NCBI GenBank assembly: GCA_017458225.1
Contig: JAFTFX010000019.1
Location: 1-64,000, forward strand
DNA from: Prevotella sp.
GTDB lineage: Bacteria > Bacteroidota > Bacteroidia > Bacteroidales > Bacteroidaceae
DNA: 64,000 nucleotides
Direction of reading: 5' to 3'
In this document: positions 13,264 to 33,221 of the stretch, in pieces
Layout of the letters: the number at the start of each line of letters is the position of its first letter
Numbering within the stretch: position 1 is the first letter of the stretch
Notes under the pieces: model-generated
Seen by the model: only the letters and a program-made list of their open reading frames with translations
What the model was told of the DNA's origin: nothing
The model's database searches: none
Translations under genes and position numbers: made by a program

Positions 13264-13356
13264 ACCCCCCTCTTATCCCCCCGAAGGGGGGAGGCCGTAA
13301 CAGGGGTTTGGGCCTTGGTTTCCTTTCATCCCCCCCTCGGGGGGACGGAGGGGGGT
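13264..13356. repeat. inverted doublet of GC-rich palindromes between frdA and frdB
   Basis: Left arm 13264-13292 starts ACCCCCCTC, then a short spacer, CCCCCC, GA(A) and GGGGGG. The right arm 13329-13356 is the same design in reverse orientation. The two enclose a 36-nt spacer. The element ends 1 nt from the frdA stop codon and starts 7 nt from the frdB start. Each arm is itself a hairpin, giving REPIN-like geometry. It differs in sequence from the family at 30.3, 30.7 and 32 kb. Confidence 0.8.
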
Positions 13357-29783: not shown

Positions 29784-30377
29784 TTATAAGTTAAGCATTT
29801 CCCGCAGCTTGGCCACGGTGATGGCAATTTTCTCGTAGTTGTCCATCAGGCTCACGTCGAGCGTGTGTTGGGCTTTCGAGTAGAAAGGTTCGCGTTTCTC
29901 CAGTTGCTCCTTGATGAAGGCAGTCAGCTCCTCGGGGCTCTTGCCTTTCAGCAGGGGGCGTTCGGTCTTGCCCATCATCAGGTGCTTGTGCAGCACCTCG
30001 GGTTCGCAGCGCAGGTATACCACCTGTCCCTGCTGGTTCATGTAGTCGATATTGTCGAAGAAGCAGGGCGTGCCGCCGCCGCAGCTGATGATGACATCTT
30101 CAAATTCTGCCACCTCGTGCAGCATGTTGTGTTCTATCTTGCGGAACCCCTCCTCGCCCAGTTCGGCAAAGAGTTGCGGCACGGTCTTGCGTCGCCGGCT
30201 CTCGATGTACCAGTCCAGGTCGTAGAACGGGATGCCCAGTTCTTTCGAGAGTGCCCTTCCCACCGTGGTCTTGCCGGCACCCATGTAGCCTATCAGGATA
30301 ATTCGTAGACTCTCCCCCAGCCCCTCCCTGTGAGGGAGGGGAGTGGTTAGATTCTTCTTCTGCAAGTTATCATTCAT
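29784..30377 (-). CDS. aroK: shikimate kinase with repeat-derived N-terminus
   Basis: Phosphorylates shikimate with ATP in aromatic amino-acid synthesis. The enzyme core starts RIILIGYMGAGKTTVGRALS (Walker A GAGKTT), with DLDWYIESRRRKTV and IISCGGGTPCF as shikimate-binding motifs. In other kinases the initiator Met lies directly before this core. Here the codon before RIIL is CTA, and the nearest upstream starts lie beyond a palindromic repeat. Residues before the core (NLTTPLPHREGLGESL) are therefore encoded by the repeat at 30307-30345. I placed the start at 30377 (MNDNLQKK), which overlaps the stop of the DUF559 gene. An in-frame ATG at 30395 is also possible. Activity of the core should be intact. 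Confidence 0.9.
   Translation of the reverse strand: MNDNLQKKNLTTPLPHREGLGESLRIILIGYMGAGKTTVGRALSKELGIPFYDLDWYIESRRRKTVPQLFAELGEEGFRKIEHNMLHEVAEFEDVIISCGGGTPCFFDNIDYMNQQGQVVYLRCEPEVLHKHLMMGKTERPLLKGKSPEELTAFIKEQLEKREPFYSKAQHTLDVSLMDNYEKIAITVAKLREMLNL
30307..30345. repeat. 39-nt palindromic repeat, left end of DUF559 element
   Basis: Begins AGACTCTCCCCC, has the self-complementary core CCCCTCCCTGTGAGGGAGGGG and ends AGTG. It matches the reverse complement of 30749-30787 at all 39 positions. It lies inside the aroK reading frame and encodes the peptide TPLPHREGLGES. Confidence 0.92.
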
Positions 30378-30741
30378 TGTTGAAATAGTGCTCAATTTTG
30401 TTGATGACTTCTTTGGGTTCGTTCAATACTTCTTCATTGGTGAATCTGAGGATATGAAAGCCCATGCGTTCCAAGTCTTGTTCGCGAAGGGCATCGTCTT
30501 CCTGTTGTCGTGGTTCTGAGTGGTATCCTCCATCTACTTCGATGATAACTCCACCGTGGCGCGACACGAAATCCACGATATAATCGCCTATGATGTGCTG
30601 TCTAAGGAATTTCTCTCCTGCTATTCCTTTTCTCAGAATCTCCCACAGCATGTTTTCTGCGAGAGTTGCATTTTTACGGTTCTCCCTTGCAAAGGCTTTC
30701 AGTAGCCCATATCTGTCTGGTGAAGCCGTCCTGTATCCCAT
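30370..30741 (-). CDS. DUF559 (Vsr-like PD-(D/E)XK) endonuclease-domain protein
   Basis: A 123-residue protein matching the DUF559 family, which shares the fold of very-short-patch repair endonucleases. Visible hallmarks are NATLAENMLWEILRKGIAGE, the strand FLRQHIIGDYIVDFVSRHGG with the acidic residue of the nuclease core, VIIEVDGGYH as the second acidic motif, and GFHILRFTNEEVL near the C-terminus. It probably cuts or nicks DNA; the target is unknown. The gene is boxed in by identical inverted palindromes and overlaps the aroK start by 8 nt. It is transcribed with topA and aroK. Stand-alone repair, selfish mobilisation and host-defence roles are all possible; the repeats favour mobilisation. 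Confidence 0.88.
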   Translation of the reverse strand: MGYRTASPDRYGLLKAFARENRKNATLAENMLWEILRKGIAGEKFLRQHIIGDYIVDFVSRHGGVIIEVDGGYHSEPRQQEDDALREQDLERMGFHILRFTNEEVLNEPKEVINKIEHYFNNE

Positions 30742-30748
30742 TTCTATA

Positions 30749-30787
30749 CACTCCCCTCCCTCACAGGGAGGGGCTGGGGGAGAGTCT
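30749..30787. repeat. 39-nt palindromic repeat, right end of DUF559 element
   Basis: Exact reverse complement of the repeat at 30307-30345. It starts 8 nt upstream of the DUF559 start codon and ends 2 nt short of the topA stop codon. Confidence 0.92.
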
Positions 30788-30789
30788 TC

Positions 30790-33183
30790 TTATTTGTTGA
30801 TCACTTTCATGCACTCCTCGTACGTCAGTTGCTTGGCGCGGTCGTGCATCGACTTCGGCATGCGGTAGTTCTTGCCGTCGTAGGCCAGGTAGGGACCGTA
30901 GCGGCCGTTCATCACCTCCAACTTCGGGTCTTCCTCGAAGGTCTTGATGTGCTTCTGCGTGTCCTGCTTGCGCTTCTCGTCGATCAGGCGCACAGCATCG
31001 GCGATGGTGACAGCCAGGGGGTCTGCACCCTTGGGCAGCGAGGTGTACTTGCCGGCATGCAGGATATAGGCACCATAGCGGCCAGTGCCCACCGTGACGG
31101 GCTCGTCCTCATATTCGCCCAGCATGCGGGGCAACTTGAAGAGCTCCAGAGCCTGCTCCAGCGTGATGGTCTCCATGCTCAGTTCCTTGGGCATGTGGGC
31201 AAACTGCGGCTTATCCTTGTCCTCGGCGGTGCCGATCTGGATGACGGGACCGAAACGGCCTATCTTCACGAAGACGGGCTTCTTGGTGCGTGGGTCTATG
31301 CCCAGCTGGCGCTCGCCGGCCTTGCGCTCCGAACGGGCGTTCAAGGTCTTCTCCACCACAGGCTCGAAGTCGCTGTAGAAGTCCTTCATCATCTTGCCCC
31401 ACGACTCTTTGCCCTCGGCTATCTGGTCGAAGTCCTGCTCCACCTTGGCAGTGAAGTTATAGTCCATGATGGAGGGGAAATGCTCCATCAGGAAGTCGTT
31501 GACCACGATGCCGATGTCGGTGGGCAGCAGCTTGCCTTTGTCGGAACCGGTGATCTCCACGCGCGATTTCTCGGTGACAATCTTGCCCTTCAGCGTCAGC
31601 ACGCTGTAGTGGCGCTCCTCGCCTTTCTTGTCGCCTTTCACCACATATTCGCGCTGCTGAATAGTCGAGATGGTGGGGGCGTAGGTCGACGGGCGGCCGA
31701 TGCCCAGCTCCTCCAGCTTGTGCACCAGCGAGGCTTCGGTGTAGCGCTGCGGTCCTTGGCTGAAGCGCTCGGTGGCGCTGATCTCGCGGCGTGTCAGCTC
31801 CTGTCCCTCGGTCAAGGGGGGTAGGATGGAGATCTGTTCTTGCAGGCTGTCGTCTTCATCGGTCGACTCATGGTAGACCTTGATGAAACCGTCGAACTTC
31901 ACCATCTCACCGTTGGCGATGAAAAGAAGACTCTCCCCCGACCCCTCCCTGTGAGGGAGGGGAGTAGATAGTCCTGTAGCCGCATCTTTGCCCTGAGTGT
32001 AACCACTCCCCTCCCTCACAGGGAGGGGTTGGGGGAGAGTCTGTTTTATTGTCACCGTGGTCTTCTCTATTTCGGCATCGGCCATCTGGCTGGCGATGGT
32101 GCGCTTCCAGATCAGCTCGTAGAGGCGGCGCTCCTGCAGCGTGCCTTCTATGGTCTTTGCGTTCATGTAGGTGGGGCGGATGGCCTCGTGGGCCTCCTGG
32201 GCACCCTTCGACGAGGTGTGATACTGGCGCACCTTGCTGTATTCGGCACCGTACAGGCTGCTGATCTCCTCTTTCGAGGCGTTGATGCACAGGCTTGACA
32301 GGTTCACCGAGTCGGTACGCATGTAGGTGATGCGTCCGTTCTCATACAGGTGCTGTGCCACCATCATGGTCTGGCTGACGGTGAAGCCCAGCTTGCGGGC
32401 GGCTTCCTGCTGCAGTGTAGAGGTGGTGAAGGGTGGTGCCGGTGTGCGCTTCATGGGCTTCTTGGCGATGCTTTCCACGGTGAACGTGGCATCCTTGCAC
32501 TGCTCCAGGAAGGCGTAGGCCTCTTTCTCGGTCTTGAAGCGCTGGGCCAGCGTGGCTTTCACCTCTGATGCCGAGCCGTCGGGGTTCATGATGGCGAAGG
32601 TGCCGTTGATGTTATAGAAGGTCTCGCTCTTGAAGGCCTGCACCTCGCGCTCGCGTTCCACTATCAGTCGCACGGCCACGCTCTGCACGCGACCTGCCGA
32701 CAGGGCCGGCTTCACCTTGCGCCACAACACGGGTGACAGCTTGAAGCCTACCAAGCGGTCCAGCACGCGACGGGCCTGCTGCGCGTTCACCAGGTTCATG
32801 TCCAGGTGGCGCGGATGCTCAATGGCCTCCAGAATGGCGGGCTTGGTGATTTCGTGGAACACAATACGGCTGGTCTTCTGCTCGTCCAGTCCCAGCACCT
32901 CGCACAGGTGCCACGAGATGGCCTCTCCCTCGCGGTCCTCATCACTTGCCAGCCACACCTTTTCGGCTTTCTTGGCTTGTGCCTTCAGGTCGCTCACCAG
33001 TTTCTTCTTCTCGTCGGGAATCTCGTATTCGGGTTCCAGCGTATCGTCGTCGATGCTCAGTTCTTTTTTCTTCAAGTCGCGGATGTGTCCGTAACTCGAC
33101 ATCACTTTAAAGTCCTTGCCAAGAAACTTCTCAATCGTCTTTGCCTTGGCAGGCGACTCCACAATGACCAGATTTTTTTCCAT
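30790..33183 (-). CDS. topA: DNA topoisomerase I with an in-frame repeat insertion
   Basis: Relaxes negative supercoils by transient single-strand breakage. The 797-residue product starts MEKNLVIVESPAKAKTIEKF (Toprim domain, with DEDREGEAIS as its acidic motif). The active-site Tyr287 lies in GRITYMRTDSVNLS. The C-terminal topoisomerase repeats (RYGAYILHAGKYTSLPKGAD, NGRYGPYLAYDGKNYRMPKS) replace zinc fingers. Between EIEKTTVTIKQ and LFIANGEMVKFDGF there are 38 extra residues (about 381-419) encoded by a doublet palindrome at 31928-32042. Start 33183 is the only one giving the family N-terminus. A TACTTTTG promoter element lies just upstream. The gene leads the run topA, DUF559, aroK, speA. 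Confidence 0.96.
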   Translation of the reverse strand: MEKNLVIVESPAKAKTIEKFLGKDFKVMSSYGHIRDLKKKELSIDDDTLEPEYEIPDEKKKLVSDLKAQAKKAEKVWLASDEDREGEAISWHLCEVLGLDEQKTSRIVFHEITKPAILEAIEHPRHLDMNLVNAQQARRVLDRLVGFKLSPVLWRKVKPALSAGRVQSVAVRLIVEREREVQAFKSETFYNINGTFAIMNPDGSASEVKATLAQRFKTEKEAYAFLEQCKDATFTVESIAKKPMKRTPAPPFTTSTLQQEAARKLGFTVSQTMMVAQHLYENGRITYMRTDSVNLSSLCINASKEEISSLYGAEYSKVRQYHTSSKGAQEAHEAIRPTYMNAKTIEGTLQERRLYELIWKRTIASQMADAEIEKTTVTIKQTLPQPLPVREGSGYTQGKDAATGLSTPLPHREGSGESLLFIANGEMVKFDGFIKVYHESTDEDDSLQEQISILPPLTEGQELTRREISATERFSQGPQRYTEASLVHKLEELGIGRPSTYAPTISTIQQREYVVKGDKKGEERHYSVLTLKGKIVTEKSRVEITGSDKGKLLPTDIGIVVNDFLMEHFPSIMDYNFTAKVEQDFDQIAEGKESWGKMMKDFYSDFEPVVEKTLNARSERKAGERQLGIDPRTKKPVFVKIGRFGPVIQIGTAEDKDKPQFAHMPKELSMETITLEQALELFKLPRMLGEYEDEPVTVGTGRYGAYILHAGKYTSLPKGADPLAVTIADAVRLIDEKRKQDTQKHIKTFEEDPKLEVMNGRYGPYLAYDGKNYRMPKSMHDRAKQLTYEECMKVINK
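31928..32042. repeat. inverted doublet palindrome inserted inside topA
   Basis: Left arm 31928-31965 differs from the DUF559-element repeat at two bases. Right arm 32004-32042 differs at one base and is in opposite orientation. A 38-nt spacer separates them. The insertion keeps the topA frame and encodes PLPVREGSG and TPLPHREGSGESL on the two arms. It appears to be a nuclease-free version of the 481-bp element. Confidence 0.88.
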
Positions 33184-33213
33184 GTTTTGTATACGTTTTG
33201 AGTCTTTGGGCTG

Positions 33214-33221
33214 CAAAAGTA
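33214..33221 (-). promoter_or_regulatory. -7 element of the topA operon
   Basis: TACTTTTG on the minus strand, 31 nt upstream of the topA start. The -33 element was not clearly seen. Confidence 0.55.

Follow-up and report, generated by a model that had tools for sequence, protein, structure and literature searches.

The window analysed here is a stretch of 64,000 nucleotides of Prevotella sp. DNA, in which a DUF559 (PF04480) endonuclease-like gene (30370..30741, minus strand; 123 amino acids; Pfam E = 4.4e-31) lies between topA (30790..33216, minus strand), identified by Pfam and by comparison with relatives, and aroK (29784..30377, minus strand; Pfam SKI E = 3.5e-43 for the longer open reading frame 29784-30395). 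The DUF559 gene is enclosed by two palindromic arms. The left arm (30307..30345) is composed of an outward tag AGAC, a C-rich leader and a G+C-rich hairpin stem, and the right arm (30749..30787) is its inverted copy, the two being exact 39-nt reverse complements that leave 24 nt and 7 nt on the two sides of the DUF559 open reading frame, just as an earlier note on this DNA had described. The same note had placed the start of the unit 2 nt after the topA stop codon and the left arm in sequence coding for the N-terminal part of AroK, and both placements hold: 2 nt lie between the end of the right arm and the topA stop codon, and the left arm, in its minus-strand reading, falls in the part encoding TTPLPHREGLGESL, near the aroK N-terminus. 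The homology of aroK in most relatives starts at about residue 31 of the window open reading frame. The aroK start is probably the ATG at 30377, which overlaps the DUF559 stop codon, so the first aroK codons would be supplied by the unit. Folded as single-stranded DNA, 30305-30350 has a z of -2.6, with 3 of 200 shuffled sequences folding equally well.

The topA gene, the neighbour of the DUF559 unit, itself hosts a gene-less inverted pair of the same palindrome, which was absent from the earlier note. Tag to tag, this head-to-head doublet extends from about 31928 to 32042, in frame within topA, and as single-stranded DNA it folds (31926-32044) into a single extended hairpin (-48.9 kcal/mol, z = -10.4). 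An unrelated G+C-rich inverted repeat at 13329-13353 of the window is perhaps a terminator.

The window protein matches DUF559 with 107.4 bits (gathering score 20.6), and residues E29, D57, E68, D70, H74, D83 and N102 are invariant in two alignments. The earlier note gave the Vsr/PD-(D/E)XK nuclease fold as that of DUF559 proteins. The profile matches include 3hrl, an endonuclease-like protein (E = 6.3e-33 and 1.8e-27), and 3r3p, a 'Mobile intron protein' (E = 2.4e-6 and 8.4e-8) which we take to be the EDxHD homing nuclease I-Bth0305I, together with a weak match to PvuRts1I. Judged by this homology and by the conserved acidic and histidine residues, DUF559 is a relative of the Vsr/EDxHD nucleases. 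An identity as a defence system was considered and rejected, the PADLOC matches being weak and partial. In NCBIfam the window protein matches PRK09767 only, far under the cut-off, and a Sinorhizobium DUF559 protein also has weak partial matches to two anti-phage proteins and to Vsr. DUF559 matches are present in 11 phage records, at less than 60% identity.

The assembly of the organism's own genome comprises 2.24 Mb in 46 contigs and is about 75% complete. The strict palindrome pattern, CCCTCCCT-N2-8-AGGGAGGG, has 50 copies in these 2.24 Mb, compared with none for the pattern read backwards, and at the 50 sites read the layout of the arm is outward tag, C-rich leader and hairpin. Counting the strict pattern only, with degenerate copies left out, all 15 pairs that are no more than 200 nt apart are head to head with their tags outward, and the neighbours more than 500 nt apart consist of six tail-to-tail pairs and one same-direction pair. 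The DUF559 unit is the sole head-to-head strict pair with a spacing of 200-3000 nt. Since composite transposons also have a gene between inverted repeats, DUF559 might be a passenger caught between palindromes that are moved by something else; this is very improbable, as the genome contains no other head-to-head strict pair of such spacing, the sequences of nuclease and arms co-vary, and the palindrome load of genomes tracks DUF559 (see below).

The 16 head-to-head pairs (the 15 gene-less doublets and the DUF559 unit) have the termini AGAC...GTCT, with an A before GAC at 16 of 16 left ends and a T after GTC at 14 of 16 right ends. A search for direct repeats of 1-6 nt at the GAC/GTC ends revealed no target-site duplication in any of the 16. 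When the ends were offset by 0-5 nt, 2-nt repeats were present in fewer than four of the pairs and 3-nt repeats in fewer than two at every offset, so no transposition footprint is readable in these doublets. A left/right asymmetry of bases outside the tags was marginal and was dropped. At three places in the own genome, C10:142339 (L065), C31:16366 (L054) and C43:82502 (L063), a second, nearly identical copy of the tag region comes after the right tag, as though through tag duplication or the entry of one doublet into an older one.

Long open reading frames enclose 11 of the 15 gene-less doublets of the own genome, and the frame continues uninterrupted through each of these; as a bacterial genome is mostly coding, this indicates tolerance of genes and not a preference for them. 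The palindromes are G+C-rich stem-loops, as would be expected of transcription terminators or RNA-stability hairpins around an ordinary gene, but the doublets within reading frames are read through in frame, the head-to-head order is fixed, and the tag and leader are conserved outside the hairpin, which leaves such a role with next to no probability. The own genome has four DUF559 matches, and the copies other than that of the window carry other palindromes: CCCCTCCCGAGGGGAGGGG-type arms lie on both sides of L001 (score 35), the arms of L002 are weaker (score 16), and L004, at a contig end, has a further palindrome variant on its one readable side.

DUF559 genes are partnered with palindromes in other genomes as well. 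In the same genus, inverted arms (inverted repeat score of at least 12 within 250 nt on the two sides) were found at 24 of 30 DUF559 loci and in 1 of 120 control windows of the same loci, full flanks being required, which left out L024 and L043 at contig ends. A scan of the Bacteroidota (within 300 nt; L107 and L109 left out) found inverted arms at 68 of 78 DUF559 loci vs 8 of 502 controls, or 63 of 78 vs 3 of 502 at a score of 14; the genus and scan sets overlap in part (L036 = L090, L028 = L123), so these counts are not additive. The earlier note had proposed a test of whether DUF559 genes are flanked by the repeat more often than by chance, and in both sets they are regularly flanked by such repeats. 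The association of palindrome and DUF559 is far above chance, given the 50 copies in the own genome against none of the reversed pattern and the greater frequency of arms at DUF559 loci than in control windows.

Outside the Bacteroidota, palindromes lie across or beside 18 of 23 DUF559 loci and in 0 of 138 control windows at a score of at least 18 (20 of 23 and 1 of 138 at a score of 14), each locus having three chances and each control window one. These loci are from a plasmid collection that includes some chromosome-sized records; 25 of its 37 DUF559 records were taken for variety and 23 were counted. Divided by group, the loci with palindromes are 12 of 12 in the Alphaproteobacteria, 4 of 4 in Deinococcus, 2 of 5 in the Cyanobacteria and 0 of 2 in the Gammaproteobacteria. 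No such arms were found at the DUF559 genes of E. coli and Aliivibrio (the Aliivibrio locus, L223, has a score of 9), and L222 of Neisseria gonorrhoeae has C-rich palindromes on both sides by eye, with no arm match across the gene (score 10). C-rich palindromes near DUF559 were seen by eye, and were not counted, in Photobacterium, Picosynechococcus, Synechocystis and Neisseria. The loci below threshold amount to 6 of 30 in the genus, 10 of 78 in the scan, where seven of the ten are copies embedded in genes, and 5 of 23 outside the Bacteroidota. A further 20 DUF559 stretches, from nine genomes chosen for their many palindromes and some of them already in the earlier sets, have arms (score at least 15) at 17, the exceptions being L235, L239 and L243.

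Some further repeats were recorded at these loci. The doublet adjoining the Sinorhizobium DUF559 gene (L153, 2380-2560) matches at least 1243 places in 179 plasmid records, most of them rhizobial, and resembles the RIME repeats. On Synechocystis plasmids, two DUF559 genes (L149 and L161) adjoin or lie within genes of methylase type, annotated as DUF1156 and PglX, and by eye the palindromes there are C-rich but degenerate. A CGTC-type motif (ATTCCC-N4-12-GGGAAT) was tried and rejected: it has two matches over all loci, in the ABCF relatives L206 and L215, and none near DUF559.

The nuclease and its palindrome co-vary in sequence. Among 3106 pairs without homologous flanks, from 81 loci, arm similarity rises with DUF559 identity (r = 0.33, p = 0.0005; the null has a standard deviation of 0.047 and none of 2000 permutations exceeded 0.156), the mean arm similarity being 0.37 at 40-50% DUF559 identity and 0.79 at 70% or more. 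The set comprised 81 of 108 loci, with an arm score of at least 16, and a repeat on 76 of the 81, from which near-duplicates and three copies with stops had been removed, gave r = 0.34 (2743 pairs, p = 0.0005). A perfect stem of at least 6 bp is present in 75 of the 81 arms vs 5.8% of shuffled arms and, as there are 25 different stems, pairing has been kept as the stem sequence changes. In the complete genome G016 the arm core of one DUF559 gene is shared by 11 of the 32 palindromes, both arms of the gene counted.

Related nucleases with the same palindrome core are found at unrelated sites in L003, L069, L070 and L071, and L072 has a similar palindrome. Of the loci with a nuclease close to that of the window, L069 is beside a gene for an AMP-binding enzyme, L070 is between two AMP-binding genes, L072 is beside a peptidase M24 gene, and L071 is between the genes for argininosuccinate synthase and a semialdehyde dehydrogenase, which are probably argG and argC. 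This last gap, with its genes identified by Pfam in L071, is shared with L027, L028, L033, L039, L045, L048, L097, L106, L113, L114, L121, L123 and L138. The group holds DUF559 units of several subfamilies with differing palindromes, and the gap is a possible insertion hot spot.

The number of palindromes in a genome follows DUF559. Among 100 genomes of the same genus, the median is 12 palindromes (mean 30) for the 54 with a strong DUF559 (a match of at least 70 bits) and 0 (mean 1.3) for the 46 without it (p = 2e-9), the genomes being related, so that this and the other p-values for load overstate independence. The load pattern was CCCCTCCC-N0-10-GGGAGGGG, and seven genomes with only a weak partial DUF559 (G007, G017, G020, G061, G069, G081 and G082) were counted as without; at least five palindromes are present in 5 of the 46. 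By comparison, the Y1_Tnp transposase (RAYT family, PF01797) has no clear effect on load, either for the 43 genomes with a match of E below 1e-8 (medians 1 and 2, p = 0.63) or for the 63 with any match (medians 2 and 0, p = 0.10). DUF559 separates load both among the genomes with a strong Y1_Tnp (13 vs 0) and among those without (12 vs 0, p = 8e-6), and it still does so at the looser Y1_Tnp cut (medians 13 vs 0 and 9 vs 0). The own genome, at 75% completeness, has one weak partial Y1_Tnp match (E = 2.8e-5). In G056, which has 37 palindromes including the window type, the one intact DUF559 read is unflanked.

DUF559 insertions occupy sites that are empty in relatives. The topA gene was found in 140 of 150 genomes of the genus, and in the 29 best-matching relatives it is followed by aroK. 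The earlier note had suggested a comparison of strains for an empty topA-aroK site, and the DUF559 unit is absent from between the two genes in 29 of 29 of these best-matching relatives. A gene-less doublet of another family lies at the topA-aroK junction of one relative (L166). The doublet within topA is absent in the 26 relatives that were aligned, of the 29, and sits in a loop that is freely variable among relatives and sometimes holds other repeats. The ABCF ATPase gene of G028 has a DUF559 insert (L031; residues 346-498), in frame between two ATPase domains and with degenerate arms (score 8), and in G044 the two halves of the ATPase, which are 91 and 86% identical to the G028 halves, abut uninterrupted. 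Among the matches listed, seven further genomes were read at this site and all lack DUF559 there; one of these, G071, carries a different repeat, about 100 nt long, and in G022 there is a shorter insertion. There is no in-frame ATG ahead of the DUF559 domain within the G028 insert, two TTG codons being present, so DUF559 may be made there only as part of the host protein. By flank homology, 112 DUF559 loci from the two overlapping sets fall into 57 site groups.

Repeats of another kind, with short units such as TTTCTCA or CACTCAA, are present in the topA-aroK gap of L168, L174, L178, L180 and L193 and in the ABCF loop of G071 (L244). They have an inverted partner nearby in places, and they occupy the same gaps and protein loops as the palindromes.

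A different reading of the occupied sites is that DUF559 is a homing-type nuclease which invades doublets spread by another enzyme, the palindromes being its target and not its cargo. It would fit the homology of DUF559 to an intron-encoded nuclease, the excess of gene-less doublets over DUF559 units and the doublet of another family at the topA-aroK junction of L166, but no doublet-only allele of the G028 kind was found in the eight other genomes read at the ABCF site, Y1_Tnp, the sole other mover compared, does not follow the palindrome load, and genomes without a strong DUF559 mostly have few or no palindromes (median 0, n = 46). We consider homing unlikely, and it is the one serious rival; the simplest account of the sequence comparisons is that DUF559 moves the palindromes.

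Some DUF559 copies are embedded in frame in host proteins. At least 120 open codons are present on both sides of the DUF559 domain at 18 of 75 scan loci, compared with 0 of 156 in the other two frames (75 of 80 loci were used, two with short flanks and three with stops being left out). Pfam scans of 10 of the 18 identified the hosts as methylmalonyl-CoA mutase, GH31 (two), Ham1, MazG, DegT, RecG and tRNA synthetases of the Ile/Val type (L084 and L126) and the Leu type (L128, the LeuRS of Daejeonella sp. H1SJ63). Hosts in the genus set are the ABCF ATPase, a helicase and an epimerase, and fusions in that set are to a SpoU methylase, guanylate kinase, AA kinase, YgbB/IspF and RNase H. No intein or splicing domain was found by Pfam in 18 long DUF559 frames (8 at E 1e-3 and 10 at 1e-8), nor in 7 of the latter 10 when rescanned at E 0.01.

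At the score threshold of 12, arms are present at 11 of the 18 embedded loci vs 54 of the 57 others (p = 0.001), and since embedded copies are more often without arms, this class supports the element model less directly. The clearest armless group, in Flavobacteriia-like genomes, shares one site (L125, L137, L142 and L143, with scores of 12, 9, 8 and 9; RecG by Pfam in L125 only), and may consist of fixed copies with decayed arms which are perhaps domesticated. That embedded armless copies could be domesticated for a host role would suit the proposal that DUF559 serves the host in very-short-patch or hairpin repair, as a nuclease retained close to palindromes so as to keep them in check, as would VsrA of Caulobacter, a DUF559 protein for which the available text of PMC12907096 describes a tie to DNA damage signalling when the cells have no cytosine methylase. 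A repair role would, however, leave unexplained the inverted flanking arms, the sites empty in relatives and the presence of in-frame DUF559 in unrelated enzymes, and we regard it as quite improbable.

Sequence tests of several different kinds give good support to the partnership of DUF559 and palindrome, and the comparisons also show the doublet architecture, the insertion at sites that are empty in relatives, the in-frame embedding and the co-variation, whereas DNA cutting and its site, movement by the protein and the loss of arms after embedding are inferred. We propose that the unit is probably an autonomous palindrome element with DUF559 as its dedicated nuclease, acting in trans on the gene-less doublets. 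In the proposed element, two inverted palindromes (outward tag (A)G[A/C]C, C-rich leader and hairpin) would enclose one small EDxHD/Vsr-like DUF559 nuclease gene. The nuclease would recognise its own palindrome, cut at or near the tag and mobilise the whole unit in cis, and the gene-less doublets would be mobilised in trans as its non-autonomous partners, the role that REPINs are thought to have with RAYTs. Insertions would survive between genes or, in frame, in tolerant protein loops, where the palindromes would be read as linker and the nuclease could become an embedded domain of the host enzyme; some embedded copies would later have lost recognisable arms. The suggestion of the earlier note, that a DUF559 nuclease may mobilise or maintain a palindrome family, gains support from the flanking arms, the empty gap, the palindrome load and the co-variation, and has to be widened, as the pairing extends beyond the Bacteroidota and many copies lie in frame inside genes. 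A broader reading, which we hold only tentatively, is that DUF559 elements could form a bacteria-wide class of mobile DNA and be the mobiliser of many orphan palindromic repeats (in Bacteroidota, rhizobia, cyanobacteria and Deinococcus), with some copies living like inteins that do not splice, as parasites that are perhaps produced only as an additional domain of essential host enzymes such as the aminoacyl-tRNA synthetases.

Among the known systems, inteins and MITEs each share some features with the unit. Inteins are in-frame insertions in conserved enzymes and carry a nuclease domain; the embedded DUF559 copies differ from them in that no splicing domain was found and that, to judge by the sequence, DUF559 remains in place as a domain of the host. 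MITEs are small non-autonomous inverted-repeat elements, and the doublets are unlike these and the DDE elements in that no target-site duplication (0 of 16) and no transposase were found.

The closest likeness in form is to the REPIN/REPtron system with its RAYT, a Y1 HUH transposase, as modelled in the available parts of PMC3116915 and PMC3733652 (see also PMC2817692). In both, the palindromes are short and tagged, doublets are head to head and can fold into one hairpin, gene-less copies are numerous, and a dedicated enzyme gene has the same palindrome on its flanks. In contrast, the enzyme here is a DUF559 nuclease and not a Y1 tyrosine transposase, the tag is (A)G[A/C]C and not GTAG, and most gene-less doublets (11 of 15) lie in reading frames whereas REPINs are mostly extragenic. 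As it fails these features of tag, enzyme and location, the system is not assigned to REPIN/RAYT, nor is it assigned to the inteins or MITEs. The CGTC-tagged REPs and the Rickettsia palindromic elements are similar in being in frame in proteins and in forming head-to-head dimers, but have a CGTC tag with AT at the start of the stem, both absent here; the available text of PMC3733652, a survey of 2013, says that CGTC REPs are without a dedicated transposase, asks about specific partner proteins for untagged palindromes, and makes no link to DUF559. The EDxHD homing endonuclease I-Bth0305I (described in PMC3943268) has a homologous nuclease domain and, like some DUF559 copies, its gene is inside host genes, and DUF559 differs in its many sites, its palindromic ends and the absence of any intron or intein found around it.

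A search of titles and the openings of abstracts, with most subscription journals outside its coverage, found no published link between DUF559 and palindromic elements. The words DUF559, palindromic and repeat occur together in works on CRISPR/type VI secretion and on NAD metabolism, which make no such link in the text available, and a term search of the available text of PMC1913061 found no mention of DUF559.

The pairing of DUF559 and palindromes across phyla suggests a little-noticed kind of mobile DNA. It names a partner protein for a large group of C-rich palindromes and makes the partnership testable with a protein of 120 residues. If true, the proposed mechanism would add a class of mobile element with an enzyme unlike the known transposases, would explain the 'DUF559' fusions in conserved enzymes, and would show that an additional domain of such proteins can be a mobile nuclease.
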